Below, piece by piece: positions 8,228-46,321 of a stretch of 64,000 nucleotides of DNA. This DNA is from Verrucomicrobiota bacterium (lineage in GTDB: Bacteria; Verrucomicrobiota; Verrucomicrobiia; Verrucomicrobiales; Verrucomicrobiaceae): assembly GCA_025360015.1 (NCBI GenBank), contig JANYCZ010000013.1:62001-126000 (forward strand). Direction: 5' to 3'. Positions within the stretch are counted from its first letter, which is position 1. Each line of letters opens with the position of its first letter. A program made the position numbers and the translations under genes. A model generated the notes under the pieces. That model searched no databases. It was given only the letters and a program-made list of their open reading frames with translations, and was not told the origin of the DNA.

Positions 8228-8245
8228 GAGAAGCAGAGCGACAGA

Positions 8246-11546: not shown

Positions 11547-11558
11547 GGTGCGCCCGCC

Positions 11559-14090: not shown

Positions 14091-14185
14091 TATGAGAGGA
14101 GTGGAAGGCTGCCTGAGTGATCATGCACGGTGGCATTTCCGTCACAAAGGTCCTCCCATTTCCGCCGCCGTCTATGGTTTTTTTA

Positions 14186-14201: not shown

Positions 14202-14222
14202 CATCATTCCCCCACCGCTCAC

Positions 14223-18199: not shown

Positions 18200-18212
18200 C
18201 CCCCTCCATTCT

Positions 18213-19795: not shown

Positions 19796-20796
19796 TGTCC
19801 CCCTCCCACTCCATCCTCGTCACCGGCGGTGCCGGCTTCATTGGATCCAACCTCGTCGAGCATCTGCTTGAGCTGGGGCATCGTGTGACCGTGCTGGACA
19901 ACTTCCGCAACGGCAAGCGCGAGAATCTGGCTGACTTTGCGGGAAATCCGAACCTCAAAGTCATCCACGGTGACATCCTGGACCTGCATACCTGCGAGAA
20001 AGCCTGCGAGAGCGTGAACTATGTGTTTCATCTGGCCTGCATGGGCGTGCGCCATTCGCTGCACAGCCCGCATGAAAACCATCAGGTGAACGCCACCGGC
20101 ACCCATCACATGCTGCAGGCGGCTCAGCGCGCCAAGGTGGGCAAGTTCGTTTATGTCTCCACCTCCGAAGTCTATGGCCGCGCCAAAGCCTTCCCCATTG
20201 TGGAAGAAACCGCCACCTGGCCGCTGACCGTCTATGGCGCCAGCAAGCTGGCAGGCGAGCACTACACGGCCGCCTTTCATGAATGCAAGTGGCTCAACAC
20301 CACGCGCATCCGCACCTTCAACAACTACGGTCCGCGCTCCCACTTTGAAGCTGACGCAGGTGAGGTCATCCCACGCTTCATCATCCGCGCCCTGCACGGC
20401 GAGCGGCCCGTCATCTTTGGCGACGGCACCATCACCCGTGACTTCCTCTATGTGCGCGACTGTGTGGAGATGTTCTGGCGGATCGCGCAATGCGAAAAAC
20501 TCGACGGCCAGCTTGTCAATCTCGGCTACGGCGAGGAGACCTCGCTCAATGATCTCGCGGGTGCTGTGATGGCAGCGGTGGGACGTCCCGACCTGAAGCC
20601 GATCTACGAAGGTGATCGCCCTGCCGATGTGCCGCGCCTCTGGGTGAAAGTGGACCGCCTGCGCGCCGCTCTGGACTTCAAACCGCGTGTGTCGCTGACG
20701 GAGGGCGTGCGCCTCACGTTTGAGTACTTCAAATCGTATCTCGAAAAGCACCCCGGATGCCTCGCCGAAATTCCAAACTTCAATTGGAAGGCCTGA
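19795..20796 (+). CDS. NAD-dependent epimerase/dehydratase (extended SDR)
   Basis: A 333-residue extended short-chain dehydrogenase. The Gly motif is TGGAGFIGSNL, the active-site serine lies in VYVSTSEVYG, and Tyr/Lys are in VYGASK. Family members interconvert or dehydrate nucleotide sugars in the cytoplasm. The start at 19795 overlaps the preceding stop (TGATG). The substrate is uncertain, and a UDP-glucose/galactose 4-epimerase-like or 4,6-dehydratase-like role is possible. Its end overlaps the next gene by 40 bp in another frame. Confidence 0.85.
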   Translation: MSPSHSILVTGGAGFIGSNLVEHLLELGHRVTVLDNFRNGKRENLADFAGNPNLKVIHGDILDLHTCEKACESVNYVFHLACMGVRHSLHSPHENHQVNATGTHHMLQAAQRAKVGKFVYVSTSEVYGRAKAFPIVEETATWPLTVYGASKLAGEHYTAAFHECKWLNTTRIRTFNNYGPRSHFEADAGEVIPRFIIRALHGERPVIFGDGTITRDFLYVRDCVEMFWRIAQCEKLDGQLVNLGYGEETSLNDLAGAVMAAVGRPDLKPIYEGDRPADVPRLWVKVDRLRAALDFKPRVSLTEGVRLTFEYFKSYLEKHPGCLAEIPNFNWKA

Positions 20797-21710
20797 GCCA
20801 GGAGCCAAAACCCGTCTGTCTCGTCACAGGCGGCGGCGGCTTCATCGGCTCCGCCCTGCTGCCGATTCTCTGCGCCAGCGGCTGGGATGCCATCGCAACT
20901 TCTCGGACTCCCAAACGCAAGCGCAACGGCGTACGCTGGAAGACTTGGCGTGCTGAAGACGGCGGTGTACCAGCCTGCGACTGGGACAAGCTCGACTGCG
21001 TCATTCACCTGGCCAATCCCCGCGTGCAAAGCCGCGACATCAGCGAACTGCCGCGTCAGATCGAAGGCGGCCTGCTGGCCACGAGTAGACTGCTTGAAAA
21101 AGCGGCCCGCCACAAAGTGCGGCGCTTCGTCTTTGTCTCCACCGGAGATGTGGTTTCTCCAACCGATGGCATGGCGCAGGAGACGGACAATAACTACTCC
21201 GCCACCAGCTTTTACAGTGCGGCCAAGGCGAGCGCAGAACTGCTGACGCGCAGTTGCGCCGGCCTGCTGTCCACCGCGATTGTGCGTGTCTATCACCCCT
21301 TCGGACCGGGCGGTGACGACTTCCTCATCAACCGCCTGTTCTCCGCTGTGGCTGCCGGGCGTGAGATCACCACGGAGCGTGGCGGCGGCATCTTGATCAA
21401 CCCCATCTGGATCGACGACCTCGCACGCGGTCTGGCGCTCGCCGCCTCCTCCACCGCCACCGGCGTGTTTCATCTAGCAGGTCCGGACAAACTGCGCCTC
21501 GCTGATTTCGTGAGCCTCGCAGGCCGCCTGCTGGGCAAAGCGGTCACGCTGCACACCAATCAAGCGCAGCCGTCCTTGAATCATGCAGGAGACTGCCGCC
21601 GCGCGCGGCGTCTGCTGGGCTGGCGGCCGGAGATGCGGCTGGCTGCCGGGCTGAGAAAAATGATCCCGTCTCTTGAACAAAGCTCAGCGGCATCTAGCGG
21701 TCAGCCATGA
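20757..21710 (+). CDS. NAD-dependent epimerase/dehydratase family protein
   Basis: A 317-residue SDR with TGGGGFIGSAL near the N-terminus, FVSTGDVV and an active-site YSAAK. It is more diverged than its upstream neighbour. The N-terminal 17 residues are encoded inside the 3' end of that neighbour, a 40-bp overlap, so an internal start downstream is possible. It probably modifies an NDP-sugar made by the locus. No substrate can be assigned. Confidence 0.75.
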   Translation: MPRRNSKLQLEGLSQEPKPVCLVTGGGGFIGSALLPILCASGWDAIATSRTPKRKRNGVRWKTWRAEDGGVPACDWDKLDCVIHLANPRVQSRDISELPRQIEGGLLATSRLLEKAARHKVRRFVFVSTGDVVSPTDGMAQETDNNYSATSFYSAAKASAELLTRSCAGLLSTAIVRVYHPFGPGGDDFLINRLFSAVAAGREITTERGGGILINPIWIDDLARGLALAASSTATGVFHLAGPDKLRLADFVSLAGRLLGKAVTLHTNQAQPSLNHAGDCRRARRLLGWRPEMRLAAGLRKMIPSLEQSSAASSGQP

Positions 21711-22363
21711 CTCCTGCACGCATCATCATCCTTGGCGCCAAGGGCATGGGCATGGACATCGCCGACACCATCGCCTGCCTCGCCGCGCAGGGCCAGCCGC
21801 TGACCGTGCATGGCTTCTTGGATGACGATGCCTCCACCCATGGCGGCAAAGTCGGTAGCCATCCAGTGCTCGGCGGGCTGGCAGATGCACCGCGCTACCC
21901 TGACTGCCTGTTTGTGAACGGCATCGGCACCGCCCGCAGCCGTCATTTAAAACCCGAGCTTATCGCCAAGACCGGTGTGCCGGAGGATCGCTGGTTCACC
22001 GTGGTGCATCCGCGCGCCTTCGTTTCTCCCTCCGCCAAAGTCGGGCGCGGCACCGTGCTGCTGGCGAACGTCAGCGTCTGCGCAGACGCCGTGCTGGGAG
22101 ACCACGTCATGGTGCTGCCGAACAGCATCATCTCCCACGACACCGTGGTGGAAGATTACGGCACCATCGCCAGCGGGGTCTGTATTTCAGGACGCTGCCT
22201 CATCCGCCGGGGTGCCTACCTTGGCAGCAACAGCAGCATTCGCGAAAACACCGTCATCGGCGAGGGCGCGCTCGTGGCCATGGCCGCAGTCGTCACTCGC
22301 GATGTCGCCCCCGGCATCACCGTCCTGGGCAGTCCCGCACGTCCTCTAGAAGCATCCGCATGA
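21707..22363 (+). CDS. PglD/NeuD-like sugar acetyltransferase
   Basis: A 218-residue protein with the two-part layout of PglD and NeuD. An N-terminal Rossmann-like domain (ARIIILGAKGMGMDIA) is followed by a left-handed beta-helix from about residue 95 (AKVGRGTVLLANVSV, ENTVIGEGALVAM). PglD acetylates UDP-4-amino sugars and NeuD O-acetylates sialic acid. The aminotransferase and nonulosonate genes in this locus make either plausible. It overlaps both neighbours by 4 bp. Confidence 0.8.
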   Translation: MTPARIIILGAKGMGMDIADTIACLAAQGQPLTVHGFLDDDASTHGGKVGSHPVLGGLADAPRYPDCLFVNGIGTARSRHLKPELIAKTGVPEDRWFTVVHPRAFVSPSAKVGRGTVLLANVSVCADAVLGDHVMVLPNSIISHDTVVEDYGTIASGVCISGRCLIRRGAYLGSNSSIRENTVIGEGALVAMAAVVTRDVAPGITVLGSPARPLEASA

Positions 22364-27336: not shown

Positions 27337-28149
27337 GTGTCGCTGGCTTTGTATCCGCCAGTGAATCAACCCGGTATCAAGGCCCAAATTCGAGGCATAA
27401 GAGAAAACATCATCCGCGCAGCCAGCGTCGCGGGAGAGGGGCACATTGCGAGCGCCTTTTCCATTCTCGACATCCTGTACGTGCTCTATTACGGCATCCT
27501 GCGCAATGACCCCCAGCAGCCGCAGGACCCGCAGCGCGACCGCTTCGTGCTGAGCAAAGGCCACGCCTCCCTCGGCATCTATGGCATTCTGGCCGAACGC
27601 GGCTTTTTCCCCAAGGAAGAACTGAACACCTTCGCCTCCTCCAGCGGCAGATTGGGCGGCCATCCGGACTCGCGCAAAGTCCCCGGCGTCGAAGCCTCCA
27701 CCGGCTCCCTCGGCCACGGCATGCCCATGGCGGCAGGCATGGCACTGGGCTTGAAAATCAAAACCTCCGCCTCGCGCGTCGTCTGCATCGTCGGCGACGG
27801 CGAGTGCAATGAAGGCTCCATATGGGAGGCCGCCCTCCTCGCCGCGCATCACAAGCTCGGCAATTTCACCTGCATCGTCGATTACAATCACTCCGGCGAC
27901 CGCGCCCTGATGCTCGGCGACCTCTGCGCCAAGTTCCGCTCTTTCGGCTGGGAAACCACCGAGGTCGATGGCCACGATCACGAGAAGCTTGAAGCGGTTC
28001 TCACGCCCCATGGCGGCGACGTCCCCCGCGCGATCATTGCCCACACCATCAAAGGCCACGGCTGCAAAGACATGGAACACAACCCGGCCTGGCACCACAA
28101 GGCCCCCAAGGCGGACGAACTGGAGGCATTGCTGGCCCAACTGACATGA
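27337..28149 (+). CDS. Transketolase-like protein, N-terminal (ThDP-binding) subunit
   Basis: A 270-residue protein (GTG start at 27337, immediately after the GT9 stop) matching the N-terminal half of transketolase. It has GEGHIASAFS (33-42), SKGHASLGIYG, and the thiamine-diphosphate and metal-binding motif GDGECNEG (153-160) with the following Asn in VDYNHSG (N184). The C-terminal half is a separate gene starting 4 bp before its stop, as in archaeal split transketolases and in some secondary-metabolite clusters. Chromosomal housekeeping transketolase is usually one chain, so this pair is probably dedicated to glycan-sugar synthesis (inference). Confidence 0.87.
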   Translation: MSLALYPPVNQPGIKAQIRGIRENIIRAASVAGEGHIASAFSILDILYVLYYGILRNDPQQPQDPQRDRFVLSKGHASLGIYGILAERGFFPKEELNTFASSSGRLGGHPDSRKVPGVEASTGSLGHGMPMAAGMALGLKIKTSASRVVCIVGDGECNEGSIWEAALLAAHHKLGNFTCIVDYNHSGDRALMLGDLCAKFRSFGWETTEVDGHDHEKLEAVLTPHGGDVPRAIIAHTIKGHGCKDMEHNPAWHHKAPKADELEALLAQLT

Positions 28150-29027
28150 GAAAGCAGTTTGTCACCACCACCGAGCGTCTGCTGGATGAAGACGAGCGCG
28201 TCGTCGTCCTCCTCGGCGACATCGGCGTCTTCGCCTTCCGCAACGCCTTCAAAAAGCACCCGCAGCGCATCATCAACATCGGCATCCTGGAGCAGGCCAC
28301 GGTCAGCGTGGCCGCCGGTCTGGCAAAGGAGGGATTCGTCCCGCTGTTTCACAGCATCGCGCCCTTCGTCGTCGAACGCGCCTTCGAGCAGATCAAGGTG
28401 GACTTCGGCTACCAATCGCTCGGCGGCAACTTCGTCTCCGTCGGCGGTTCGTATGACTACGCCGCCCTCGGCTGCTCACACCACTGCCCCGGCGATGTGT
28501 CCCTGATGCAAGCCGTGCCAGGAGTGGAGATCATCGTGCCCGGACATCCGGCGGAACTCGATGCGCTGATGTCGCAAACCTACGCCAGCGGCCACCCCAC
28601 GTATTACCGTTTGTCGGAGCGCTCCAACCGTAGCGCGCAGACCGTTACTTTCGGCAAGGCGCAAGTTATTCACAGCGGCAAGGGGCCCACCGTTGTAACG
28701 GTTGGGCCGTTCCTGGATCGTGTGGTGGAAGCCCTCGCAGGCACCGATGCCACGATCCTCTACTACACCACCATCACCCCCTTTGACGCTGCCACGCTCC
28801 AGCAGCATGCCGCAGATGGCCGCATCCTCTGTGTCGAGCCGTTTTATGAGGGCACCCTGGCCGCCAGCGTGACGCAGGCCCTGCGTGGCAAACGCATCGC
28901 TCTCAGCAGCATGGGCGTGCCGCGCCAGTTCCTCACCTCCTACGGCAACGCTGACTTCCACGACCGCGCCTGCGGTCTGCTGGCCCCGGACATCCGTGCC
29001 CGCTACGACGAGCTTCTCCATGTCTGA
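28146..29027 (+). CDS. Transketolase-like protein, C-terminal (pyrimidine-binding) subunit
   Basis: A 293-residue partner of the preceding gene. The catalytic glutamate of ThDP enzymes is in INIGILEQATVS (E49). SHHCPGDVSLM resembles the region after the PYR domain, and the C-terminal domain is Rossmann-like. Together they could form a heterodimeric transketolase/DXS-type enzyme moving a two-carbon unit, or adding a ketol branch to a nucleotide-sugar. Overlaps: 4 bp with the upstream gene and 8 bp with the next. Confidence 0.85.
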   Translation: MRKQFVTTTERLLDEDERVVVLLGDIGVFAFRNAFKKHPQRIINIGILEQATVSVAAGLAKEGFVPLFHSIAPFVVERAFEQIKVDFGYQSLGGNFVSVGGSYDYAALGCSHHCPGDVSLMQAVPGVEIIVPGHPAELDALMSQTYASGHPTYYRLSERSNRSAQTVTFGKAQVIHSGKGPTVVTVGPFLDRVVEALAGTDATILYYTTITPFDAATLQQHAADGRILCVEPFYEGTLAASVTQALRGKRIALSSMGVPRQFLTSYGNADFHDRACGLLAPDIRARYDELLHV

Positions 29028-33977: not shown

Positions 33978-34937
33978 ATGCCCGAAGTCCTGCCCATTCT
34001 CTACCTCGGCCCCCCGTCCGGCATCGCCGCTGTCACCACCACCCTCGGGAGCGGCTTCCAGGTGCTCTCACCTCCGACCACCCCCACTGCCGTCCTGCCG
34101 CTCCTCCCCCAGGTGCACGCCATTCTCGATGCCTCCATGAAGGTCCCCCTCCGCCAGGCCGACCTCGACACCGCCACCCACCTCAAACTCATCGCCACCG
34201 CCACCACCGGCGCCGACCACATCGACTCCAAAGCCCTGGCCGCTCGCAACATCCCTCTTCTCACGCTCAAAGGCCAGAAGCAGGTGCTCAACGAACTCAC
34301 CCCCGCTGCCGAACTGAGCTGGATGCTCCTCATGGCCTGCGCCCGCCATCTGCGTGCCGCCAATCGCCACGTCGAAACCGGCCTCTGGGACCGCGAGCAA
34401 TTCCCCGGCATGCTCCTCAAAGGCCGCACGCTTGGCCTCATCGGCTGCGGCCGCATCGGTGGCTGGATGGCCCGCTACGCCACCGCCTTCGGCATGCGCG
34501 TCATCGGCCATGACCCCTATCTCCCGGAAACCGAATGGCCCGCAACCATTGAGCGCACCGACCTCGATACCCTGCTCCAAAACGCCCACGCCGTCTCCAT
34601 CCACGTCCATCTGAGCGATGAAACCCGCGGCCTCGTCGGTCCACGCGAGTTCGCCCTCCTGCGCCCCGGCGCCATCCTCATCAACACCTCCCGCGGTGCC
34701 ATCTGCGATGAAGACGCCCTCCTGCAGGCACTCGAAACCAACCACCTCGCCGGCTACGGCACCGACGTCCTCGAAGGCGAACCCGCCATCCAGAACAGCC
34801 GCGTCTGGCAGTATGCTCAGACGCATGACAACTGCCTCATCACCCCGCACATCGGCGGCTTCAGCCCGGACGCCGTGGACATCGTGCTGAAATTTGCCGC
34901 AGGTCGCATCCGCGATTTCTTCGCTACTCAAGGCTGA
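33978..34937 (+). CDS. D-isomer specific 2-hydroxyacid dehydrogenase
   Basis: A 319-residue NAD(P)-dependent dehydrogenase, full length for the family. NAD-binding GLIGCGRIGGWMARY starts at about residue 153. The catalytic trio is R239 (TSRGAICDEDAL), E268 (VLEGEP) and H291 (LITPHIGG). It reduces or oxidises a 2-keto/2-hydroxy acid. Its last 366 bp recur at 36339-36703 as a decayed copy. In a glycan locus it may act on a sugar acid, but the substrate is unknown. Confidence 0.88.
   Translation: MPEVLPILYLGPPSGIAAVTTTLGSGFQVLSPPTTPTAVLPLLPQVHAILDASMKVPLRQADLDTATHLKLIATATTGADHIDSKALAARNIPLLTLKGQKQVLNELTPAAELSWMLLMACARHLRAANRHVETGLWDREQFPGMLLKGRTLGLIGCGRIGGWMARYATAFGMRVIGHDPYLPETEWPATIERTDLDTLLQNAHAVSIHVHLSDETRGLVGPREFALLRPGAILINTSRGAICDEDALLQALETNHLAGYGTDVLEGEPAIQNSRVWQYAQTHDNCLITPHIGGFSPDAVDIVLKFAAGRIRDFFATQG
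34572..34937 (+). repeat. Direct repeat copy A (3' end of dehydrogenase gene)
   Basis: These 366 bp cover residues 199-319 of the functional dehydrogenase. They match 36339-36703 (365 bp), the two copies differing mainly at synonymous positions. By eye the identity is high, roughly nine in ten bases. The copies bracket two low-GC genes. Flanking sequence beyond either stop is dissimilar. Confidence 0.8.
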
Positions 34938-34988
34938 TTACTGGGTCAGGCAGGCAAGAGCTTCCCGTTTAGAAACCGAGACACCCTT

Positions 34989-35459
34989 ATGCAATGGATG
35001 ATCCCAATATTGACCAGTCTCGTGCCCGCGCTTTTCATCGCCATCGTGACCTCCATCCTCACGGTTCGGCTCTCTCTGCGTCGCTTCCACGCTGAGCGCT
35101 GGTGGGAATTTAAGGCCGAGGCATACTCCCGTATTGTTGAAGCGTTGCACCAACTGATGGAGTATCACGCGGCCATGAGTGAGTCCTCTATGACAGGAAA
35201 TGACATTGGCGATAATCAGCAGACCGAGCTCAGCGCCAATTACCAAAAAGCTTACAGTGACCTCCGCAAAGCCACCCGAATAGGCGCTTACATTATTTCG
35301 GACAAAGTCGCTGCGGCGCTTGATGCACTTCATAAGCGCTCACACACTTGGAAACGCTCTGACCCGCCGTGGAAGCACGATGACGCTGAGTTCCAAGCAT
35401 ATCAGAATGCTCTAGAGGAAATTCGCCATCTCGCGAAGTTGGATTTGAAGGTTCCATGA
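34989..35459 (+). CDS. Hypothetical membrane-anchored protein of the low-GC islet
   Basis: A 156-residue protein. An N-terminal membrane helix (WMIPILTSLVPALFIAIVTSIL) is followed by a helical, charged cytoplasmic-side region of about 120 residues. No family recognised. Codon use is less GC-biased than in the adjacent glycan genes. It lies between the two copies of the dehydrogenase 3' end, which suggests acquisition with that segment. Confidence 0.6.
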   Translation: MQWMIPILTSLVPALFIAIVTSILTVRLSLRRFHAERWWEFKAEAYSRIVEALHQLMEYHAAMSESSMTGNDIGDNQQTELSANYQKAYSDLRKATRIGAYIISDKVAAALDALHKRSHTWKRSDPPWKHDDAEFQAYQNALEEIRHLAKLDLKVP

Positions 35460-35695
35460 GCCGAGGTGAGTTAAAAATGCCTATGTTGGAAAATAAAACA
35501 AGATTAAGGACTGGTGCGCGGTCGGGGGCGCTTCGCGCTCCCCTCAGCGCGCAGGCCATCGTTTTTTTCATCCTTCCGCCATGACTGTTGGGCAATTCCC
35601 GATGCGCAATTTTAAATCAATGTTCCCTCCCGACACTGAGATTAGCGCTTCCTGCCCGGTGCATGGTCATTTCAAGCCGGAATCTTTCGCGCGTC

Positions 35696-36229
35696 TTACC
35701 ACGAGGACCTGTTAAGACGAAGCTGAAGATCTTTGAAGGTCTCACAATATCGTTCATACGTTTTTCCCAAGACAAAGCCCACCAAGTGATCGTGGCTCTT
35801 CAAGTAATTCCAAGCACCAATTTCCATCAGGAAATCGTAAGGAAGTTGAATTGACGCTTTTTTCCATCCTGCCGAGAACAGAGTGTCCCTAAAAAATTCG
35901 TAATCCAATAAGGGGGTCGCAGGATATAGTTTCCGATGGAGGAACGTCGGATAATAGTCCCAAAGAGCGCATAGGCACTTCGTGTAGAGTTCTTCGGCTG
36001 GCTGTTGTGACAACACGTCTTTTGACGCCGCCATTGCAACGACGAGATTGAGGGCATGCCACACAACAGCAGCTTCCGAAGGGTCTTTTTCGCAATCTTC
36101 AAGGACATCCTTGATGTGTGAGTGCCCCTTGTATGTTTCAGCTACAGCCATGATAGCCGTCAACGCTTCAATGGTTTGATCAGCTAGCTGCTCGCTAGTG
36201 GGCTGTCTTTTTTTAAAGGGCCAGAACAT
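35696..36229 (-). CDS. Hypothetical protein of the low-GC islet
   Basis: A 177-residue soluble protein starting at ATG 36229 (MFWPFKKRQPT). Helical with several conserved-looking Trp/Tyr residues (ALWDYYPTFLHRKLYP, LGKTYERYCETF). No family recognised. Base composition is clearly poorer in GC than the genes on either side of the islet. It faces the 156-residue gene. Confidence 0.6.
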   Translation of the reverse strand: MFWPFKKRQPTSEQLADQTIEALTAIMAVAETYKGHSHIKDVLEDCEKDPSEAAVVWHALNLVVAMAASKDVLSQQPAEELYTKCLCALWDYYPTFLHRKLYPATPLLDYEFFRDTLFSAGWKKASIQLPYDFLMEIGAWNYLKSHDHLVGFVLGKTYERYCETFKDLQLRLNRSSW

Positions 36230-36338
36230 ACGAACACACGATGCGTTGACGATCCTTCATGGGGCATGCACTCACAGTCAACAAATTACTTTCAGGCGAG
36301 GTACAAAGTCGGCTGTAGAATGATGCCGGGCATTTAGT

Positions 36339-36703
36339 TTGCTGCAAAACGCCCACGCCGTCTCCATTCACGTCCACTTGAGCGATGAAACACGCGGCCT
36401 CGTCGGCCCTCGTGAGTTCGCCCTCCTGCGTCCCGGCGTCATCCTCATCAACACCTCCCGCGGTGCCATCTGCGATGAAGACGCACTCCTGCGGGCTCTG
36501 GAAACCAACCACCTCGCCGGCTACGGCACCGACGTCCTCGAAGGCGAGCCCGCCATCCAAAACAGCCGCATCTGGCAATACGCGCAGACACACGACAACT
36601 GCCTCATCACCCCCACATCGGCGGCTTCAGCTCCGACGCCGTGAACATAGTCCTCAAATTCGCCGCCACCCGCATCCGCGATTTCTTCGCCACCCAAGGT
36701 TAA
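36339..36703 (+). pseudogene. Truncated, frameshifted copy of the 2-hydroxyacid dehydrogenase 3' end
   Basis: The sequence aligns with codons 199-319 of the dehydrogenase at 33978, starting at LLQNAHAVSIHVHL. It lacks the entire substrate- and most of the NAD-binding region, so it cannot be functional. Near 36610 one base is missing in a run (ATCACCCCCACATC against ATCACCCCGCACATC). This destroys the catalytic-histidine motif TPHIGG. After the frameshift the original frame continues to TAA at 36701-36703. Differences elsewhere are mostly synonymous, so the copy diverged under selection before decay. Confidence 0.85.
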
Positions 36704-36777
36704 GTCCCAGCTCATGCAGAGGTCCAAAGAAGCAACAAGCAGTTTTCTAAAAGCTGGGCATCTTTTTTATTTCGGCT

Positions 36778-37797
36778 TCATTTGTAGCTCGTTGGCAGGA
36801 CTAGTGAATTGACTATCGCCTTGATTAGCGGTTCAAGCTGCTTAACGCGAACTTCCTTCGCCTCAGGGCCGCCAGGTGTATAGCACATGAACTGGAGTGC
36901 AATAAATGCGTCCTCGTGGACGAGATAGTAAAATACACCACGAGTATCGACACTAACGTCAAGGCGCTTCGTGGTCTGCGTAAAATGAATGATGCCAAGA
37001 GGTAGTCTCTCAAGTCGCCCAGTTGTATAGCTGAGCGTCTTTCCACCATCGTCAAACATCTCCTTTGCATAAGATTCAGTAAAAAGTTCAGCGAGCTCTT
37101 GTGGAGTAGGTGTTGCAGGTAGCTTGCGAATCAGCACCATGAAAATATCAGTTCCGTGACCTCCATCAGAAATCCACTTCTGAACAATACTGGGACGATC
37201 TGCTTCCAACTGCCTCCAGCTTAACGGGTATCGGATGGTCAACTCCACGCCCTTCGCCTTCGCATGACCCTTCGAGGAAAAGGTGCCAGTATATCCAGTG
37301 GCAAACTCCAATTCAGGCGACTTCACAAACTTGGGATTCGAGGCGAGAAGCATCTCGCGGTTCGGAGAATCAAGAACGCCTTTGGCTCTCTGCTGTACAG
37401 CCTCAAGAAAGTTGATTACCATCTCTCGGGTGGCCTTGCTGTTCTGCGGTTTCAAAACCGACTCAAACTGAGCAATCAGCTTTAAGCGCGTATCTTCCCA
37501 CTGTTCAGCCCCGAATGCCTTTAATCGTTCCTCAACACCCGCCTCTGCTTCCTTGAATGCGCTGTTCCACTGCATCTCAGCCAAGATGATCTGAGGCTCC
37601 AAATCCGGAAACATCTGACGAAGCTGAGTGAGGCTTTGGCGCTGAGCGTAGCAGAAGCCGAAAGTCTTAGATAAATCTTGAACGACTGTGGTCTTAACGG
37701 GGGGAGCCTGCCCGCTTGCCGGCGGAGAAATGCAGAAGTAAAGACAGACAACAATGGTTGCTGTGAAGCGGGCGTGAAGCTGGAAGAGTGCATTCAT
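36778..37797 (-). CDS. Exported protein of unknown function
   Basis: A 339-residue protein started at ATG 37797, which exposes a signal sequence (ARFTATIVVCLYFCI) with cleavage near SGQA. A helical region (about 40-150) is followed by a mixed alpha/beta domain from about residue 160 (GVELTIRYPLSWR, GRLERLPLGIIHFTQ, VHEDAFIALQFMCY). The C-terminal domain resembles lipid- or signal-binding PsbP/LpqN-like folds, but this is a loose impression. Low GC. Overlaps the next minus-strand gene by 4 bp. Confidence 0.65.
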   Translation of the reverse strand: MNALFQLHARFTATIVVCLYFCISPPASGQAPPVKTTVVQDLSKTFGFCYAQRQSLTQLRQMFPDLEPQIILAEMQWNSAFKEAEAGVEERLKAFGAEQWEDTRLKLIAQFESVLKPQNSKATREMVINFLEAVQQRAKGVLDSPNREMLLASNPKFVKSPELEFATGYTGTFSSKGHAKAKGVELTIRYPLSWRQLEADRPSIVQKWISDGGHGTDIFMVLIRKLPATPTPQELAELFTESYAKEMFDDGGKTLSYTTGRLERLPLGIIHFTQTTKRLDVSVDTRGVFYYLVHEDAFIALQFMCYTPGGPEAKEVRVKQLEPLIKAIVNSLVLPTSYK

Positions 37798-37961
37798 GAA
37801 TATTTTCGGAAAAGCCACCACTGAACGCCGATTGCCGCGTAGCCTAACACACCTAGAACTAGCGGAGTTCTGGAATTCTTGAAATAAGACCGAATAAATG
37901 GCGGACGGAGAACGAGGATAGTTGGAAATGCCAGCAGAAAGAAAATGCGACCATCACTCAT
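37794..37961 (-). CDS. Small membrane protein
   Basis: 55 residues when started at ATG 37961 (MSDGRIFFLL). Two hydrophobic segments (FFLLAFPTILVL and LVLGVLGYAAIGVQWWLF) with a short polar loop. It overlaps the upstream gene by 8 bp and the downstream gene by 4 bp, which supports it as real and translationally coupled. Function unknown. Confidence 0.5.
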   Translation of the reverse strand: MSDGRIFFLLAFPTILVLRPPFIRSYFKNSRTPLVLGVLGYAAIGVQWWLFRKYS

Positions 37962-38178
37962 CTTGTTTCGGGGGTAATGATTTATTGCTGGTCTTATCGG
38001 ACGTTGTGGTGGTGGAGTCGCCAGCACGGATTCCCTTCCAAGCTGCGCTGAGAGCAGCCATCAACACCAGCATTGGAATAGCCCCCCCTCCAGCCTTCCA
38101 ACCGAGAGCAGCGCCAATACAAGCGTAGGCAATGATGATCAAGAAACATGCGATAATGGCGAGAAAGGTACGATTCAT
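37954..38178 (-). CDS. Small membrane protein
   Basis: 74 residues from ATG 38178 (MNRTFLAIIACFL). An earlier ATG at 38208 would add ten residues. Two membrane helices (FLAIIACFLIIIAYACIGAA and AIPMLVLMAALSAA) are followed by a Thr/Ser/Lys-rich tail. It is the first gene of a three-gene low-GC minus-strand operon with the small membrane protein and the exported 339-residue protein. Confidence 0.5.
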   Translation of the reverse strand: MNRTFLAIIACFLIIIAYACIGAALGWKAGGGAIPMLVLMAALSAAWKGIRAGDSTTTTSDKTSNKSLPPKQDE

Positions 38179-38208
38179 AAGAGCTATGGGCGTTCCGCTA
38201 ACGTTCAA

Positions 38209-38554
38209 ATATCCCTACCTCTGAGTGGAGGCCGGCGTCGCAGCAAGCAAAAAGTGGAATATCCATTAGAATTTCAACTCATATCCTAGTGGAATACCTG
38301 ATCTAGGTTCGCATCGAGTGCCATTCATGCTAGGCATTCGGTTGATTGATTCCACTAAACGGGATCAGTCAAAATGAACAAACCACCCACTCGCACTCCC
38401 TTCATCCCACCAGCACGCCTGCCCGCCTCACGCAGCAATTCCATCACACCTCCCCAACGCCCCCACGAGACCCCTTTACAGCCCTCCCGCCCCCCATTAA
38501 GAATCGTCTTCCCCAACCTCCTCACCCTCCGACGCCCCCGCCCCCTGATCCCGC
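38209..38554. other. Non-coding region before the ThDP-enzyme gene: AT-rich half, then C-rich half
   Basis: The first half is AT-rich and contains a 9-bp inverted repeat (TAGTGGAAT at 38287-38295; ATTCCACTA at 38349-38357) and a further GTGGAATA copy near 38253. The second half (about 38374-38554) is strongly biased to C on the + strand, with few G residues. Short open frames there encode Pro/Arg-rich, featureless peptides and are not reported as genes. The region probably contains the promoter of the second glycan arm. Confidence 0.5.
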
Positions 38555-40111
38555 ATGGCCTATGAATCCTTTGCTCAGCAGTTCGCCGCGCTTGGCGGTC
38601 GTCGCATCTTCGGCGTGCCCGGTGGCGGCCCCAGCCTGGAGCTGATCACCCAGATTGAAAACGCAGGCGGTTCCTTCATCGCCACCGGACATGAAGCAGT
38701 CGCCGCCTTGATGGCCGGTGCTCATGCCCGGCAGACAGGAAAGCCAGCCGCTTGCATCACGATCAAAGGCCCCGGCTTCATGAATCTCTCACCCGGCCTG
38801 CTGTGCAACAGCTACGAGGGTTATCCCTGCCTCTCCATCTCCGAGGCCTATCCACCGGATGAATCCACCGGCCGCAGGCACAAATGGCTGAACCATCTCG
38901 ACGTGGCCTCCACCTTCCTGCGCGGCATGCATGGCTTCAGCGAAATCCATGGCGCTGTGGAGTCACTGTGGTCTGAAGCAACCCAGGAATGCCCGGGACC
39001 GGTGCACATGGATCTGGTGCCACGCAGCGAATCCGTTCGTGAAATGCCACGCAGCATGGTGAACGCCACGCAGCCCGACTGGCGCAAACAGCTCGCTGCC
39101 GCCAAATGCCCCGCCTTGCTCGTCGGCACCTGGGCCACCCGCAGTGCGTGGGGCGCACGGCTTGCCGCGCTGCAAATTCCGGTGTTCACCACCGCAGCTG
39201 CCAAAGGCGCACTCTCCGAGCACCTGCCACACTGCGCGGGCATCTGCACCGGCGATGGCAAACCGAACACGCCCGAGAAAACGCTGCTGCCCCAGGCCGA
39301 TCTGCTGATCTGCCTCGGCGTGCGCAGCGGCGAGATGCTCTCCCCTTCTGCACCGCATGCGAACACCCTTTGGTTTGACGCCCCCGGCCTGCATGAGCAG
39401 CGCGTCTTCCCTGACAATGTCTTCGGCACCCGCGCCAGCGACTTGAGCGACACAGATGCCGCTGAACTCTTCGACACCTTGCAGGAAAAGTGCTGGGGCA
39501 TCGAAGCCACCATCACCGCTCACGCCGTGCTGGATAACGCGATGTCGGGCTGGGACGACTCACCTCGCACCGCCATGTATGCCGTTGCAGCACGCTTGCC
39601 CGATGCAGCGCATATTGTCGACACCGGCAACTTCACCGTTTGGGCCGAGCATTTTCTTCGCGTGAAGCACTCTCTCGATCTCACCGGCACGCCCAATGGC
39701 CGCTATCTCGGCGCAGGCGTCGGTTATGCCCTCGGCACCGCCTTGGCGCGTGCGCCCAAACCTTCCGTTCTATGGATCGGCGATGGCGGCATTCGCGCCA
39801 ACCTCGCAGAACTCTCCCTCGCGGTGGATCACCAATTGCCGCTGCTTGTTCTCGTCATGCGGGACGGCTACCTAGGCAGCATCCGGGGGCGTGCGCGCAA
39901 GCTGGGCTGGTCGCAGCAGCCACTGAAGCTGCCGGATCACCGCCTGCTGCGCGTGGCCGAGGCCATGGGCCTTGCCACCTGGGACGCACCCAACATGGCG
40001 ACGCTTGACTCCGCCATCCAGCAATGGCAGCACGCCGGAACCCCACCCGCGCTGATCGAGTATCACCTCGCGCCGGACATTTACGTGGATATGACTGAAC
40101 AGCTTCGATGA
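38555..40111 (+). CDS. Thiamine-diphosphate enzyme, acetolactate synthase-like
   Basis: A 518-residue three-domain ThDP enzyme. The cofactor-activating glutamate is E47 (ATGHEAVAAL) and the metal/diphosphate motif is IGDGGIRANL (D410). The second metal ligand, usually Asn, is Asp at 437 (LVMRDGYLG). It is shorter than acetohydroxyacid synthase and lies next to a Gfo/Idh dehydrogenase and NeuA/NeuC genes, so a branched-chain amino acid role is unlikely. Addition of a pyruvate-derived two-carbon unit to a sugar, as done by YerE, is possible. It overlaps the next gene by 4 bp. Confidence 0.82.
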   Translation: MAYESFAQQFAALGGRRIFGVPGGGPSLELITQIENAGGSFIATGHEAVAALMAGAHARQTGKPAACITIKGPGFMNLSPGLLCNSYEGYPCLSISEAYPPDESTGRRHKWLNHLDVASTFLRGMHGFSEIHGAVESLWSEATQECPGPVHMDLVPRSESVREMPRSMVNATQPDWRKQLAAAKCPALLVGTWATRSAWGARLAALQIPVFTTAAAKGALSEHLPHCAGICTGDGKPNTPEKTLLPQADLLICLGVRSGEMLSPSAPHANTLWFDAPGLHEQRVFPDNVFGTRASDLSDTDAAELFDTLQEKCWGIEATITAHAVLDNAMSGWDDSPRTAMYAVAARLPDAAHIVDTGNFTVWAEHFLRVKHSLDLTGTPNGRYLGAGVGYALGTALARAPKPSVLWIGDGGIRANLAELSLAVDHQLPLLVLVMRDGYLGSIRGRARKLGWSQQPLKLPDHRLLRVAEAMGLATWDAPNMATLDSAIQQWQHAGTPPALIEYHLAPDIYVDMTEQLR

Positions 40112-41106
40112 GCACCACCACCCTCCACCTTCTCGTCATTGGTCTCGGCTCCGCCGGGAAACGCCATGCCCGCAATCTCCGTGCTCTCGGTTGCACCGTG
40201 AGCGGCTTTGACCCGCGTACCGATCGCCAGGAAGAAGCGCAAGCCGAAGGCCCGTTTGTCGCCACCTTCAGCAACCTGGATGAAGCGCTGCGGACCACCG
40301 CCTTCGATGGCTTTGTCATCGCCTCACCACCCGCATTCCACATCGATCAAATCATCGCCGCTGGTGCAGGCGGCCGCTGGATCCTCTGCGAAAAGCCGCT
40401 GAGTATCGATGTCGCAAGCTGCCGCCGTCTGGAGGCCGCCGGTGCACGCGTTCTCCTCGGCTACACCTACCGCTGGTGGCCGCCCGTGGCCGAGTTCCGC
40501 CGCCGTCTGCAAAGCGGCGAAATCGGTGCCGTGCGGCACATCCGTTTCGTGATGAGCGCGCATCTGGCCGACTGGCATCCCTGGGAGCGCTATCAGGACT
40601 TCTTCATGGCAAACAAGGAACAAGGCGGCGGCGCATTGCTGGATGAAAGCCACTTCCTCGACCTGCTGCTGTGGTTTTCCGGCAAGCCCCAGTCCGTGAT
40701 GGCCTCGGTCGATAAGATCTCCGATCTCGACATCAGCGCCGACGACAACGTCGATGTCATCGCCTCCTTCAGCAATGGCATGAAGGCCAATCTGCATCTC
40801 GACCTCATCGGCCGTCCGCATCAGCGCCACATCATCGCCGTGGGCGAGACTGGCACGCTGATGTGGTCCTATGAAGAGAACGCGGTGAAACTCTCGCGCA
40901 CCGGTGAGTTGAAATGGGAAGACCAGATCTTCACCTGCGAGCGCAATGAGATGTTCATCGGTGCCGCCATTGAACTGCTCGACCTCATCCGTGGCATCCG
41001 CACGGCGCCCTCCTGCTCGCTCGCCGATGGCATCGCTGCGCTTGAAGTAGTGGATGCCTGCCGTCAAAGCTCCGCCAGCGGCCAGTCCATCCGTCTCGCC
41101 TCATGA
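40108..41106 (+). CDS. Gfo/Idh/MocA oxidoreductase of the nonulosonate module
   Basis: A 332-residue cytoplasmic NAD(P)-dependent dehydrogenase without an export signal. The Rossmann motif is VIGLGSAGKRHARNLRALG (10-28) and EKP is at residues 95-97. The C-terminal domain has GGGALLDESHFLDLLLWF, containing the usual active-site histidine region. It is translationally coupled to both the ThDP enzyme and the cytidylyltransferase gene (4-bp overlaps), so it likely acts on a precursor or product of a nine-carbon acid or its modifying sugar. Confidence 0.85.
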   Translation: MSTTTLHLLVIGLGSAGKRHARNLRALGCTVSGFDPRTDRQEEAQAEGPFVATFSNLDEALRTTAFDGFVIASPPAFHIDQIIAAGAGGRWILCEKPLSIDVASCRRLEAAGARVLLGYTYRWWPPVAEFRRRLQSGEIGAVRHIRFVMSAHLADWHPWERYQDFFMANKEQGGGALLDESHFLDLLLWFSGKPQSVMASVDKISDLDISADDNVDVIASFSNGMKANLHLDLIGRPHQRHIIAVGETGTLMWSYEENAVKLSRTGELKWEDQIFTCERNEMFIGAAIELLDLIRGIRTAPSCSLADGIAALEVVDACRQSSASGQSIRLAS

Positions 41107-41846
41107 AACACGGTCGTCGCATCCTCGCCGTGGTGCCGGCCCGTGCAGGCAGCAAGGGCATCCCGGACAAAAACATGCAGCAGATCGCAGGCCGGTCGCT
41201 CATCGCGCTTGTCGGCGAAGTTCTCAACTCGCCCGCATGTGACTGGATCGACCGCCGCATCATTTCGACCGACTCCGAACGCTATGCCGAAGAAGGCCGC
41301 CAACATGGTCTCGACGCTCCCTTTCTCCGCCCCCCCGAACTCAGCTCCGACACAGCTGGTGCCGTGGAAACCCTCTGCCATGCCGTCACCGAAATGGAGC
41401 GCATCGATGGCGTGACCTATGACGTGATCTTGATCGTCGAGCCCACCTGCCCCTTTCGCCAACCCGAAGATGTCAACGGCGTCATGGATCTGCTGGCCCA
41501 AACCGACGCCGGTTCCGCCGTGACCGTGAGCCGCGTGGACACCAAATTCCATCCTCACAAAGTGCTGCGCGTAAATGCCGAGGACGTCATCAGCTTCTAC
41601 GCTGAAGCCGGAGCTGGCGTGAAACAGCGACAGTCCCTGGAGCCGCTCTTCTACCGCAACGGTGCCTGCTACGCGCTCAGCCGCGCTTGCCTCATGGATG
41701 AGCAGCGCATCTTCACCACCAGCACCCGCGCCCATCTGGTGGATCGCCTGCTGCTAAACATCGACGAGCCGGAAGAAATCGAACTGGCCCGCTATTATGC
41801 CGAGACACGCCACCTGCCCGTCGGCTATAAACAAGCATCTGCATGA
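41103..41846 (+). CDS. Acylneuraminate cytidylyltransferase (NeuA/LegF-like)
   Basis: A 247-residue CMP-nonulosonate synthetase. The nucleotide-binding N-terminus is VVPARAGSKGIPDKN, and later motifs VEPTCPFRQPEDV and NGACYALSR are typical. It couples CTP to a nonulosonic acid (sialic, legionaminic or related), giving the donor for a glycosyltransferase. It lies between the oxidoreductase and NeuC genes, overlapping both by 4 bp. Confidence 0.92.
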   Translation: MKHGRRILAVVPARAGSKGIPDKNMQQIAGRSLIALVGEVLNSPACDWIDRRIISTDSERYAEEGRQHGLDAPFLRPPELSSDTAGAVETLCHAVTEMERIDGVTYDVILIVEPTCPFRQPEDVNGVMDLLAQTDAGSAVTVSRVDTKFHPHKVLRVNAEDVISFYAEAGAGVKQRQSLEPLFYRNGACYALSRACLMDEQRIFTTSTRAHLVDRLLLNIDEPEEIELARYYAETRHLPVGYKQASA

Positions 41847-43015
41847 AAAAGAAAATCGCTGTCGTCCTCGTCAATCGCGCGAACTACGCCCGCATGAAGC
41901 CCGTCATGCAGGCGCTGCAGCATGAGCCCGAGGTTGACATGCACACCATCTGCGCCGGCTCCATGCTGCTGGATCGCTACGGCAACGCGCGCAACGTGGT
42001 GGCGGCCGACGGCTTTTCCGTCGATGCCGAGGTCTATCTCCAGCTCGAAGGCTCCGTGCCCATCACCATGGTCAAATCCATCGGCCTCGCGGTGATCGAA
42101 TTCGCCTCCGAATTCAACCGCATGAAGCCCGACTTCGTGCTGATGATCGGCGACCGCTACGAAGCCATGGCCGCCGCCATCGCCGCCGCGTATCAAAACA
42201 TCTGCCTCATCCATCTGCAGGGCGGCGAAATCTCCGGCTCCATCGACGAGTCCACCCGCCATGCCATCACCAAGCTGGCCCACTATCACTTCCCCGCCAC
42301 CCAGCGCGCGGCGGAATACATCGTCGCCATGGGTGAAGACCCGGCCACCGTCTTCCCGCTCGGCTGCCCCACCAGTGATGTGGTTCTGGCCGCATCCAAC
42401 GATCTCCCGCAGGATGTCCTCGGCCGCCTCGGCGTCGGCACCTCCATTGATTTTTCCAAACCCTACCTCCTCGTTCTCTTCCACCCGGTCACCACCGACA
42501 TCGGCCATCAGGAAGAGCAGATGGACGCCGTACTGGAAACCGTGCGCCGCCTGAACATCCAGACCGTCCTGCTCTGGCCAAACATCGACGCCGGCTCCGA
42601 CCTCGTCTCCCAGGCCATCCGCCGCTTCCGCGAGAACCATCACGAGTTCCCGCTGCACGCGTACAAGAACCTGCCGCCGGACATCTACATCCCCCTGCTG
42701 AACCACGCCGCCTGTTGCATCGGCAACTCCTCCTCCTTCGTGCGTGAGACCTCCTTCTTTGGCACACCCGTCGTGCTCGTCGGTTCACGCCAGGACGGCC
42801 GCGAGTGGTCACCTTCGGTCGTGCGCGTGGAGCCGTTGCAGCCAGAAATCGAGGCAGCCACCAAGAATCAGCTCGCGCATGGCCGCTACGAGGCCTCAGA
42901 TCTCTACGGCGGCCCAGGAGTGTCCGGCCGCATCGCCACGCAGATCGCCAAGCTCACCCCCTACGCGCAGAAGCAGCTCCACTACGTCAAACGCCAGCCT
43001 ACTTCGCCCGCATGA
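41843..43015 (+). CDS. UDP-N-acetylglucosamine 2-epimerase, hydrolysing (NeuC/LegG-like)
   Basis: A 390-residue GT-B-fold epimerase. Visible family motifs are MIGDRYEAMAAAIAAAYQN, HLQGGEISGSIDESTRHAITK and the late CCIGNSSSFVRETSFFGTP. It converts UDP-GlcNAc (or UDP-diNAcBac in LegG) to the free 2-epimer, the substrate for the NeuB-type synthase at 45275. Which sugar is used cannot be told from the sequence. It overlaps both neighbours by 4 bp. Confidence 0.92.
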   Translation: MKKKIAVVLVNRANYARMKPVMQALQHEPEVDMHTICAGSMLLDRYGNARNVVAADGFSVDAEVYLQLEGSVPITMVKSIGLAVIEFASEFNRMKPDFVLMIGDRYEAMAAAIAAAYQNICLIHLQGGEISGSIDESTRHAITKLAHYHFPATQRAAEYIVAMGEDPATVFPLGCPTSDVVLAASNDLPQDVLGRLGVGTSIDFSKPYLLVLFHPVTTDIGHQEEQMDAVLETVRRLNIQTVLLWPNIDAGSDLVSQAIRRFRENHHEFPLHAYKNLPPDIYIPLLNHAACCIGNSSSFVRETSFFGTPVVLVGSRQDGREWSPSVVRVEPLQPEIEAATKNQLAHGRYEASDLYGGPGVSGRIATQIAKLTPYAQKQLHYVKRQPTSPA

Positions 43016-43896
43016 ACACCCCCTGCCCCATTTGCAGCGCCAATGAGTGGCGCAGTTGCTACCACGGCTCCATCCGCATGGGCTCCTTTGGCAAAAAGTC
43101 CCCCGAAGACCTCGACATCTGGGAATGCGGCGGCTGCGGCGCGCGCCATCTCCCACCGGTGATGGCAGACATTGAAGCCTACTACAAGTCCGGCGAATAC
43201 CGCGATGACCTCAGCCAGGGCAACGCCGTCGATGCCTATTTCAAAGTCAATGACAACGACCAGCCCCACCGGCTGGACCTCATCGGGATGCATGCCCTGC
43301 GCGGCAAAAGCGTAGCCGACATCGGCTGCGGCGCAGGCCCCTTCCTCGATCTGGTCAAAGGCTTCGCCGCCAAGACCATCGCCGTTGAACCCAATCAATG
43401 CTACCACGACTCCCTTCGCCAGCGCGGCCATGAAGTCTATACCTGGGCGCAAGAGGTGCCCGCTGAAAGCACCATAGATGCCGCCGTCAGCTACAGCGTC
43501 CTCGAACACGTCGAAGACCCGCTCAAATTTCTACAAGACATCCACCGCCTCCTCAAACCTGGCGGCGCCCTAGCCCTGAGCACCCCGAATGCCGACGACT
43601 GGATGGTCGCCAACAGCCCCGACTATGCCGCCTTCTTTTACCGCAAAGTCCATCTCTGGTACTTCACCGCCACCGCCCTCCAAAAACTGGCCTCCATTGC
43701 CGGATTCGACACATGCGAAGTGACCTTCGACCACCGCTTTGACCTCTCAAACGCCATGGTCTGGATGCGCGACAAACGCCCCACCGGCAACGGCAAGATC
43801 CCCTTCGACCCCGCCCTCAACGCCGCCTGGCGCGAATCCCTGATCCGCCAGGGCGCCAGCGACTACCTCTACGCCATCCTCAAGAAGCCGTTTTAG
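43012..43896 (+). CDS. SAM methyltransferase with N-terminal zinc-ribbon-like motif
   Basis: A 294-residue protein. The N-terminus has CPIC and, 30 residues later, CGGCGA, a putative four-cysteine zinc site. The Methyltransf_23-type domain follows with VADIGCGAGPFLDLV (about 101-115), SYSVLEHVEDPLKFL and LKPGGALALSTPN. Such enzymes are common in glycan loci. Its last 4 bp overlap the stop of the convergent next gene. Confidence 0.83.
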   Translation: MNTPCPICSANEWRSCYHGSIRMGSFGKKSPEDLDIWECGGCGARHLPPVMADIEAYYKSGEYRDDLSQGNAVDAYFKVNDNDQPHRLDLIGMHALRGKSVADIGCGAGPFLDLVKGFAAKTIAVEPNQCYHDSLRQRGHEVYTWAQEVPAESTIDAAVSYSVLEHVEDPLKFLQDIHRLLKPGGALALSTPNADDWMVANSPDYAAFFYRKVHLWYFTATALQKLASIAGFDTCEVTFDHRFDLSNAMVWMRDKRPTGNGKIPFDPALNAAWRESLIRQGASDYLYAILKKPF

Positions 43897-45278
43897 CGTC
43901 GCGGCGCACCGGAAGCGAGATAGGCCGTCACAGCCTCACGCCACCTCTTGCAGGTCTGCCCATCGGTATGCGTCACCACGCGTCGCAGCAGACGTTGGCG
44001 CTCCTCACGGCGTTTCTCAGGATGGTTGACGCATTCTTTCAGCGCGGTGCGCAGATCTTCGTCATTGTGCACCATCCACGTAGCATCCTCCTGGATGACC
44101 GGCTGCGCATGCACATAGCGGAAAAACCGCACCACCGACAACCATGGCGGCAGCTCCAAGCCGCAGTCATAAGCCAGGTTCACCACCGGCACGTCAAAAC
44201 ACGCGGCATCAAGAATGATGGATGACCCGCTCGTCAGCAGCACATCGGTGTTTTTCAGCGTGGAGGCCCGTTCATAGTCTTCCTCGGCCAGCGGGATCCA
44301 TGAATGGCGGCCATACGCAGCACCTTCCCCCAGCGGATACTGAATGGTGGTGTGTGGCAGCCCCTCAAACTCCTTGTACAAAGTATAAATATCCTTCGGA
44401 CTCACCCGCACCAGCAAATGGCAGGGATGCTCAAACGGCTGCTCAGCAATGATGCTTTGCAGCAGTCGCACAAACGGCTGGTTGCAGCGGATGACCGCGC
44501 TGTCTCCCGTGGCGAACTGGATGATTTTCGTCTCCGGCGAAACGCCGAGCTGCTCACAGAACTTCTCGCGCGGCATCAGCTTCTCAGGCGCGAAGTAGTT
44601 CTCGAAGTAAATGACGCCGACGATAGACATGCTGTCCGCCTGCATCCCATGGCACTGCGCCATCTCCTGCTTCATCTCGGTTGACCAGACCAGCGTGAAA
44701 TCAGGAACCACCGTGAGCGGCCCTTTGGAGGTGGGATTGTCCCAGCTCGCTACGGCAAGGATGAGCGGAATCTTATGCCGCCGCGCTTCCTTCAGACACT
44801 CTAGGTCGGAGGGAATCATGTTGGCAAATACCACGGCATCCGGCTTCACCTCTTCAATCAGACGCGCGAAATCGGCGTCATGGCCAAAGCGTTCCATGAA
44901 GCGGATGATCCCCTGCGAGGTGATGCCCATGCGCAGTGCCAGACGTGACAAGCCCAGCCGGAAGTCCAGGTTTTTGCGCTTTCTAGCCAGCGCCTCCACC
45001 ATGCGCTTCTGCGTGAAGCTGCTGTCCGGCTGTTCGACCGTCCACAAATCCTTGGCCCAGGAAAACAACAGCGATGAGAACCAAGTGGGCTTCTTGCGCT
45101 TCAGTGCCACAATGCGCAGCCGCTCATGCTGAAACTCACGCGTCGTGGCCTCCAGATTGAAGGTGCAATACACCGTGAGGTGGGTGGTGCCGTCCGCGAG
45201 CAGTTCCTCCAGCAACCGGCTGCGAAACACATCCCGGTAAAACTGCACCGTATCGACGATTAAAATCAAGTTCATCAC
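43893..45278 (-). CDS. GT-B-like glycosyltransferase or surface-carbohydrate biosynthesis protein
   Basis: A 461-residue protein without membrane segments. Its C-terminal half has the patterns of GT-B donor domains (VLLTSGSSIILDAACFDVPVVN resembles the C-terminal region of CDP-glycerol glycerophosphotransferase-like and NulO transferases). Its position between NeuA/NeuC and the NeuB gene suggests it may attach the nonulosonate to the glycan. It overlaps the NeuB stop by 4 bp. The family is not certain. Confidence 0.65.
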   Translation of the reverse strand: MMNLILIVDTVQFYRDVFRSRLLEELLADGTTHLTVYCTFNLEATTREFQHERLRIVALKRKKPTWFSSLLFSWAKDLWTVEQPDSSFTQKRMVEALARKRKNLDFRLGLSRLALRMGITSQGIIRFMERFGHDADFARLIEEVKPDAVVFANMIPSDLECLKEARRHKIPLILAVASWDNPTSKGPLTVVPDFTLVWSTEMKQEMAQCHGMQADSMSIVGVIYFENYFAPEKLMPREKFCEQLGVSPETKIIQFATGDSAVIRCNQPFVRLLQSIIAEQPFEHPCHLLVRVSPKDIYTLYKEFEGLPHTTIQYPLGEGAAYGRHSWIPLAEEDYERASTLKNTDVLLTSGSSIILDAACFDVPVVNLAYDCGLELPPWLSVVRFFRYVHAQPVIQEDATWMVHNDEDLRTALKECVNHPEKRREERQRLLRRVVTHTDGQTCKRWREAVTAYLASGAPRR

Positions 45279-46321
45279 TCAAAGTCTTCCTGCTTCAGGA
45301 ATTGCGCGGCCTTGACGGCATGCTTCAGCTTTTTGCCAATCACCGTTGTCGCATCTACCACCGTGATGCCGTGCCCCGGCTTGCGGCAGGAAAGATTCTC
45401 GCGTGTGATCACCGTGCCTGCGGGGAGATCTTCCGCAGCCACCAGACTCTGGCCAAACATGCGGCGCAGCGGCTCCAGTGCCTCCGCCACCGAGTCCTTG
45501 GGAATAGGATTGGCCTTCATCGTTTCGATGCTGCGAACCCCCGTTACCATCTGCTTAAACTCATCCGTGGTGAGCGAGGCGGAAACATCCGGCCCAAACA
45601 TCTCGCGGCTGAAAGTGACATGAACCTCAATCAACTTCGCTCCCAGCGTGACCGCCGCGAGAGAAGGATACGGCGTGCCCGAGTGATCCGACAAGCCCAC
45701 CGGGCAGCCGTAGCGTTCCGCCAATTCGGTGATCTGATTGAGCCCGATTTTCTCTGGCGGGCAAGGGTAAGACGTCGTGCACTGAAACACGGCCACAGGA
45801 GATTTTGCCGCCTGCAGCAGAGCGACCGTTGCATCCATCTCCTGCAGATAACTCATGCCACTGGAAACGAGCACCGGTTTGCCAGTGGCAATCATGGCAT
45901 CCAGAAAAAGCCGGTTGGTCACTTCACCGGAAGCGACCTTCCATGCCGACATGCCGAGACGTTCCAGCAGACGAATGGCAGCGAGTGAAAACGGCGAGCT
46001 CAAAAACACCAGCCCCTTTTCCTCGGCATGCTGCTTGAGTTCCAGCCACTGCGGCTCGGTGAACTCCATGCGCCTCCAATAGTCATAGCGCGTGGCGTCC
46101 TGCTTGCTAAATTTCACCCGCCAGGTGTCCAGCTCCGAGCTTTCCTCCGCCGCGATGTGCGTCTGAAATTTCACCGCATCGGCCCCAGTCTCCGCTACGG
46201 CATCGATGTAAGCATGCGCGGACCCAAGACTACCATCGTGCGCCTGCGCGACTTCGGCGATGATGAAGCATGGCGCAGCAGGGTTCTGCCACAGATCCTG
46301 GATGTCGCGGAGATGGGACAT
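45275..46321 (-). CDS. N-acetylneuraminate/legionaminate synthase (NeuB-like)
   Basis: A 348-residue enzyme with a TIM-barrel domain and a C-terminal antifreeze/SAF domain from about residue 290 (EDLPAGTVITRENLSCRKPG). Barrel motifs are FIIAEVAQAHDGSLGSAHAY, AVKFQTH, KVASGEVTN and GLSDHSGT. It condenses phosphoenolpyruvate with a free ManNAc-type sugar to make a nonulosonic acid. The upstream epimerase gene ends 5 bp before. It works with the NeuC and NeuA homologues encoded on the opposite strand. Confidence 0.92.
   Translation of the reverse strand: MSHLRDIQDLWQNPAAPCFIIAEVAQAHDGSLGSAHAYIDAVAETGADAVKFQTHIAAEESSELDTWRVKFSKQDATRYDYWRRMEFTEPQWLELKQHAEEKGLVFLSSPFSLAAIRLLERLGMSAWKVASGEVTNRLFLDAMIATGKPVLVSSGMSYLQEMDATVALLQAAKSPVAVFQCTTSYPCPPEKIGLNQITELAERYGCPVGLSDHSGTPYPSLAAVTLGAKLIEVHVTFSREMFGPDVSASLTTDEFKQMVTGVRSIETMKANPIPKDSVAEALEPLRRMFGQSLVAAEDLPAGTVITRENLSCRKPGHGITVVDATTVIGKKLKHAVKAAQFLKQEDFE

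Follow-up and report, generated by a model that had tools for sequence, protein, structure and literature searches.

The 64,000-nucleotide stretch of a Verrucomicrobiota genome that was analysed here (the window) encodes a ThDP-dependent enzyme, and comparison of loci supports this enzyme as a fixed member of an operon that also comprises a Gfo/Idh/MocA dehydrogenase (Gfo), a NeuA-like cytidylyltransferase, NeuC and, in related genomes, a D-2-hydroxyacid dehydrogenase (dh33). Tentatively, we read the enzyme as a carboligase/decarboxylase of a deep lineage of the pyruvate-decarboxylase/AHAS superfamily, similar in action to YerE and ErwE, which together with the two dehydrogenases would produce a branched or chain-extended sugar of a surface glycan. 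If the ThDP enzyme acts on a nonulosonate or its precursor, sialic-acid-like sugars would be diversified by a new route, and synthesis would gain a new carboligase; even otherwise, the operon is a small, testable set of five genes and a lead on the function of PtmF-type Gfo proteins.

Operon organization

The source genome has a size of 6.6 Mb, and the nearest loci are those of Verrucomicrobiaceae/Prosthecobacter MAGs. The features of the locus are listed in Table 1. Overlaps of four bases (ATGA) link the ThDP gene to the Gfo gene, the Gfo gene to the NeuA-like gene and the latter to NeuC; the ORFs and these junctions bear out the original prediction, according to which the ThDP ORF overlaps the dehydrogenase, followed by the cytidylyltransferase and epimerase genes. 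The gene set given there was right regarding these four coupled genes but missed dh33 as a member of the module and did not list NeuB.

Table 1. Features of the ThDP locus and its surroundings (positions within the window)
Feature	Position	Strand	Evidence
Split transketolase-like pair, neighbouring module	27337..29027	+	Transketolase_N, Transket_pyr
D-2-hydroxyacid dehydrogenase (dh33)	33987..34937	+	2-Hacid_dh_C, E 2.9e-53
Insertion of 3.6 kb between dh33 and ThDP gene	34938..38554		Direct repeats; gap absent in L004-L008
ThDP-dependent decarboxylase/carboligase-type enzyme, 518 aa	38555..40111	+	Pfam TPP_enzyme N/M/C, alignments
Gfo/Idh/MocA dehydrogenase, PtmF-like, EKP motif	40108..41106	+	Pfam; identity to nonulosonate-cluster Gfo proteins
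NeuA-like CMP-nonulosonate cytidylyltransferase	41103..41846	+	CTP_transf_3, E 3.1e-16
NeuC, hydrolysing UDP-GlcNAc 2-epimerase	41843..43015	+	TIGR03568, 350 bits (above cut-off of 235.9)
SAM methyltransferase after NeuC	42904..43896	+	Methyltransf_23
NeuB-type nonulosonate synthase	45275..46321	-	Pfam NeuB, E 5.4e-69

With NeuC and the NeuB- and NeuA-type genes, the NeuABC nonulosonate gene set is complete in the window. The NeuA- and NeuB-type proteins score above the Pfam cut-offs but below the equivalog cut-offs (108.7 bits for the NeuA-like protein with the PseF model; 304.9 bits for the NeuB-type protein with TIGR03569, cut-off 399.65). The SAM methyltransferase gene is shared by most relatives (L005, L006, L007, L008 and L020; none was seen in L004). 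A second Gfo protein (UDP-GlcNAc 3-dehydrogenase-like), an aminotransferase, a LegB-like SDR and a NeuD-family acetyltransferase are encoded at 17183-22363, which suggests a diamino-sugar pathway upstream. Regarding a legionaminic cluster, no gene of the window exceeded the LegB or LegC cut-offs (SDR19, 192.9 bits, cut-off 475; SDR46, 169.5 bits, cut-off 475; AT18, 239.9 bits, cut-off 420).

dh33 belongs to the ThDP module and is parted from it in the window by the insertion. In five relatives (L004-L008) the dh33 match stops at most 16 bases from the start of the ThDP gene. The insertion carries a duplicated partial copy of dh33 (36340-36719) that is 92% identical to it; the direct repeats measure 274 nt (92%) and 110 nt (80%). 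At the same dh33/ThDP site, another relative (L020) has about 2.6 kb of other DNA, one frame of which reads like a GIY-YIG nuclease; with inserts in the window and in L020 and none in the five relatives, the junction appears to be an insertion hotspot.

The block upstream, which consists of the split transketolase, two SDRs and two more conserved genes, is present in one genome (G284, L069) without the ThDP module and is thus separable. An obligatory tie of the ThDP module to the split transketolase was dropped, as G284 has the transketolase module but not the ThDP module. Four genomes of the genus that lack the ThDP module (L065, L066, L067 and L068) retain NeuB (80-84% identity) and a NeuA of only 41-43% identity to that of the window; NeuB therefore probably does not require the product of the ThDP enzyme. 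Around NeuA of L065, acyl-CoA-ligase-like, GNAT-like, sulfotransferase-like and polysaccharide-deacetylase-like genes were read by eye, as though decoration genes had been exchanged around a NeuB/NeuA core in these four genomes.

Distribution and conservation

Among 68 genomes from the family, seven encode the ThDP enzyme, and these seven belong to one genus; no further match was obtained among 387 genomes sampled phylum-wide (E 1e-25). Exactly the same seven genomes contain the Gfo protein (searched for in 240 genomes of the order at E 1e-45), dh33 (searched for in the 68 family genomes at E 1e-60) and a close NeuA (82-94% identical to that of the window). The original prediction depended on conservation of the operon, and the gene-neighbourhood survey found it in this strict co-occurrence. 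The seven ThDP orthologues (517-518 aa) share 78-87% identity, and dN/dS is about 0.12-0.16, a rough value with synonymous sites near saturation; the ThDP gene is thus under purifying selection and not a chance ORF.

Outside the Verrucomicrobiota, the search covered genome contigs, with a single sequence, as well as plasmid and phage records. The tblastn search of the plasmid and phage records yielded only enzymes 21-30% identical to the ThDP enzyme; the four plasmid neighbourhoods of such matches that were inspected all lay outside sugar clusters, and no relative was found in the viral contigs searched.

The ThDP enzyme

The TPP_enzyme N, M and C domains, all above the Pfam cut-offs, and the catalytic Glu (E47) and GDG motif (D410), both conserved in the alignments, place the protein in the ThDP-dependent decarboxylase (DC) superfamily. 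At the metal site, R436-D437 replaces the usual Asn-Asn; D437 corresponds to the second metal-ligand position and is invariant in the seven orthologues. The original prediction had singled out this residue, and the Asp does occupy the metal-ligand position, but it is not unusual: in a reference set of 40 DC-type ThDP enzymes, four carry Asp there, among them an AlsS-like protein from Listeria and two enzymes from Variovorax, and D437 was therefore rejected as a mark of odd chemistry. Judged from the alignments, the real oddities are Arg/Lys436, Gly45 and Lys71, each found in none of the 40 references. Met261 is located near the Arg position of AHAS, and the RQW stretch is without its Trp; these two positions, which we take to be acceptor-site residues of AHAS, are also missing in catabolic AlsS-like proteins. 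An AlphaFold2 model built from six close orthologues was poor (mean pLDDT 48.6).

The identity of the ThDP enzyme to IlvB, IlvI, Gcl, PoxB and Oxc of E. coli was 19-23%, and that to the genome's own AHAS about 23%. The best NCBIfam matches were acetolactate synthase models, the highest score being 118.3 bits (cut-off 509), and the enzyme remained under all curated acetolactate synthase cut-offs (495 or more). In the trees, the seven orthologues formed one long-branched group outside AHAS; AHAS (IlvB/IlvI and the genome's own) grouped without the ThDP enzyme in the best trees, whereas a joint clade was not rejected (AU p 0.223). Clustering with canonical AHAS had been named in advance as the outcome that would speak against the prediction, and these placements, identities and scores support the view that the ThDP enzyme is not a canonical AHAS.

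Relation to sugar-branching enzymes and nonulosonate clusters

Two ThDP enzymes of the DC superfamily, YerE and ErwE, come from LPS sugar clusters (yersiniose A, erwiniose); YerE takes an acetaldehyde unit from pyruvate and attaches it to CDP-3,6-dideoxy-4-keto-glucose, and ErwE uses longer hydroxylated 2-oxo acids (PMC12247030). The relation to YerE was tested with 60 CDP-glucose 4,6-dehydratase loci of Verrucomicrobiota (L127-L186). A DC-type ThDP gene, YerE-like by context only, was located near 29 of these, which makes it probable that ThDP enzymes for sugar branching are common in the phylum; the count also suggests that C-branched sugars are widespread there. Two of the YerE-like enzymes beside a CDP-glucose dehydratase (L178, 14316-16547; L145, 1807-3639) show CDG in place of GDG, as was also reported for JanthE (PMC12247030). 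Of the 29 enzymes, 26 formed one clade (SH-aLRT 99) with the window's enzyme outside; a YerE-like position by tree was not upheld, but joining the enzyme to this clade was not rejected either (AU p 0.281). No TIGR02622 match, i.e., no CDP-glucose 4,6-dehydratase, was found in the window's genome (E 1e-60), so the acceptor must differ from that of YerE.

The Gfo protein shares 28-34% identity with the Gfo proteins encoded next to NeuA in Ensifer, Rhizobium WL3 and Roseovarius and with a nonulosonate-cluster Gfo of Halorussus (33% for both Ensifer and Halorussus). It is directly followed by the NeuA-like gene and is kin to nonulosonate-cluster Gfo proteins, i.e., it is PtmF-type by comparison with proteins in the PtmF position. 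The PtmF of Plesiomonas, an oxidoreductase, is encoded next to LegF in a legionaminic cluster (PMC4481668). The claim that no known sialic or legionaminic pathway needs a decarboxylase-type ThDP enzyme agrees with the open-licence literature searched, in which no paper was found that links a thiamine enzyme or acetolactate synthase to a legionaminic, nonulosonic or NeuB pathway.

In another genome (G181, L200), rfbF-rfbG-rfbH-SDR-ThDP runs straight into Gfo and SDR genes and then a cluster of Leg type with NeuB, NeuC, NeuD-like, PtmE-like, LegB- and LegC-type genes (2115-16371, minus strand), apparently the end-to-end fusion of a yersiniose-type operon and a legionaminic-type cluster. The full cluster indicates that adjacency of ThDP and Gfo genes can reflect two concatenated sugar pathways, and this adjacency in G181 was rejected as independent support for coupling.

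Proposed function

Regarding the reaction, its substrates and what each dehydrogenase contributes, we infer the following. The ThDP enzyme would decarboxylate a 2-oxo acid and transfer the acyl group to a ketone, resulting in a branched or chain-extended sugar. dh33 may make the 2-oxo acid, or may reduce it or the product; as ErwE takes hydroxylated 2-oxo acids (PMC12247030), such a partner would suit ErwE-like chemistry. The Gfo enzyme may supply the keto sugar or reduce the new carbonyl, and NeuC, NeuB and NeuA would make and activate a nonulosonate of the same glycan, which could be the acceptor or merely a partner sugar. Against this reading stand the position outside the CDP-linked clade and, with the dehydratase, the absence of the usual acceptor; keto sugar and 2-oxo acid alike are conjectural, and both the retention of NeuB in module-less genomes and the two joined pathways of L200 weigh on the same side. 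A more specific version, in which a new ThDP lineage builds a C-C bond onto a nonulosonic acid or its hexosamine precursor and so yields a sialic-acid-like sugar that is C-branched or chain-extended, the ketone acceptor being created by the PtmF-type dehydrogenase, appears distinctly doubtful.

That two sugar pathways simply stand end to end, the ThDP enzyme (together with dh33 and/or Gfo) producing a sugar of the repeat unit that is not a nonulosonate, and NeuA, NeuC and NeuB independently making the nonulosonate, is possible if somewhat unlikely: G181 offers a precedent, with its YerE-type operon directly before Gfo, SDR and Leg-type cluster, and NeuB is common to genomes without the module, but the window's genome has no CDP-glucose dehydratase and the ThDP enzyme strictly co-occurs with Gfo and the close NeuA. 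Unlikely, too, is a role of the ThDP enzyme and the hydroxyacid dehydrogenase in making a small acyl block (aldehyde, hydroxy acid or acyloin) for N- or O-acylation without a sugar C-C bond. Gfo enzymes usually oxidise sugars or cyclitols, and in the dh33-ThDP-Gfo-NeuA-NeuC block we recognised no gene dedicated to acyl activation or acyl transfer; the acyl block would nevertheless agree with the adjacency of the ThDP and 2-hydroxyacid dehydrogenase genes and with the missing AHAS acceptor-site residues, although AlsS-like proteins lack these as well. Very improbable is the relocation into the locus of an ordinary AHAS- or AlsS-type acetolactate synthase, given scores far under the curated cut-offs, a genome that has its own AHAS and no valine/isoleucine or butanediol genes recognised alongside, even if the top NCBIfam matches are such models, the AU tests leave a clade with AHAS standing and the metal-site Asp is that of AlsS-like proteins.

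Comparison with known systems

With AHAS and AlsS, the ThDP enzyme has in common the three-domain structure, the catalytic Glu, GDG and, regarding AlsS-like proteins, the metal-site Asp, but it is only 20-23% identical, below all cut-offs and on its own branch in the best trees. Its best match among solved structures was N2-(2-carboxyethyl)arginine synthase (E 3.1e-23), although the match was in two pieces only and no clavam genes were recognised nearby. The PtmF-NeuA(LegF/PtmB)-PtmA module of legionaminic clusters is similar in that Gfo is directly followed by NeuA and in the identity of Gfo to PtmF-position proteins; here, however, no PtmA-type SDR follows NeuA, no PtmE was recognised, and the ThDP enzyme and hydroxyacid dehydrogenase precede Gfo. 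As with YerE and ErwE, a DC-superfamily ThDP enzyme is accompanied by reductase/dehydrogenase partners in a cluster for surface sugars (PMC12247030), whereas here CDP-glucose dehydratase is absent, the enzyme lies outside the CDP-linked clade (defined by context), and its partners are a Gfo/Idh dehydrogenase and a 2-hydroxyacid dehydrogenase.
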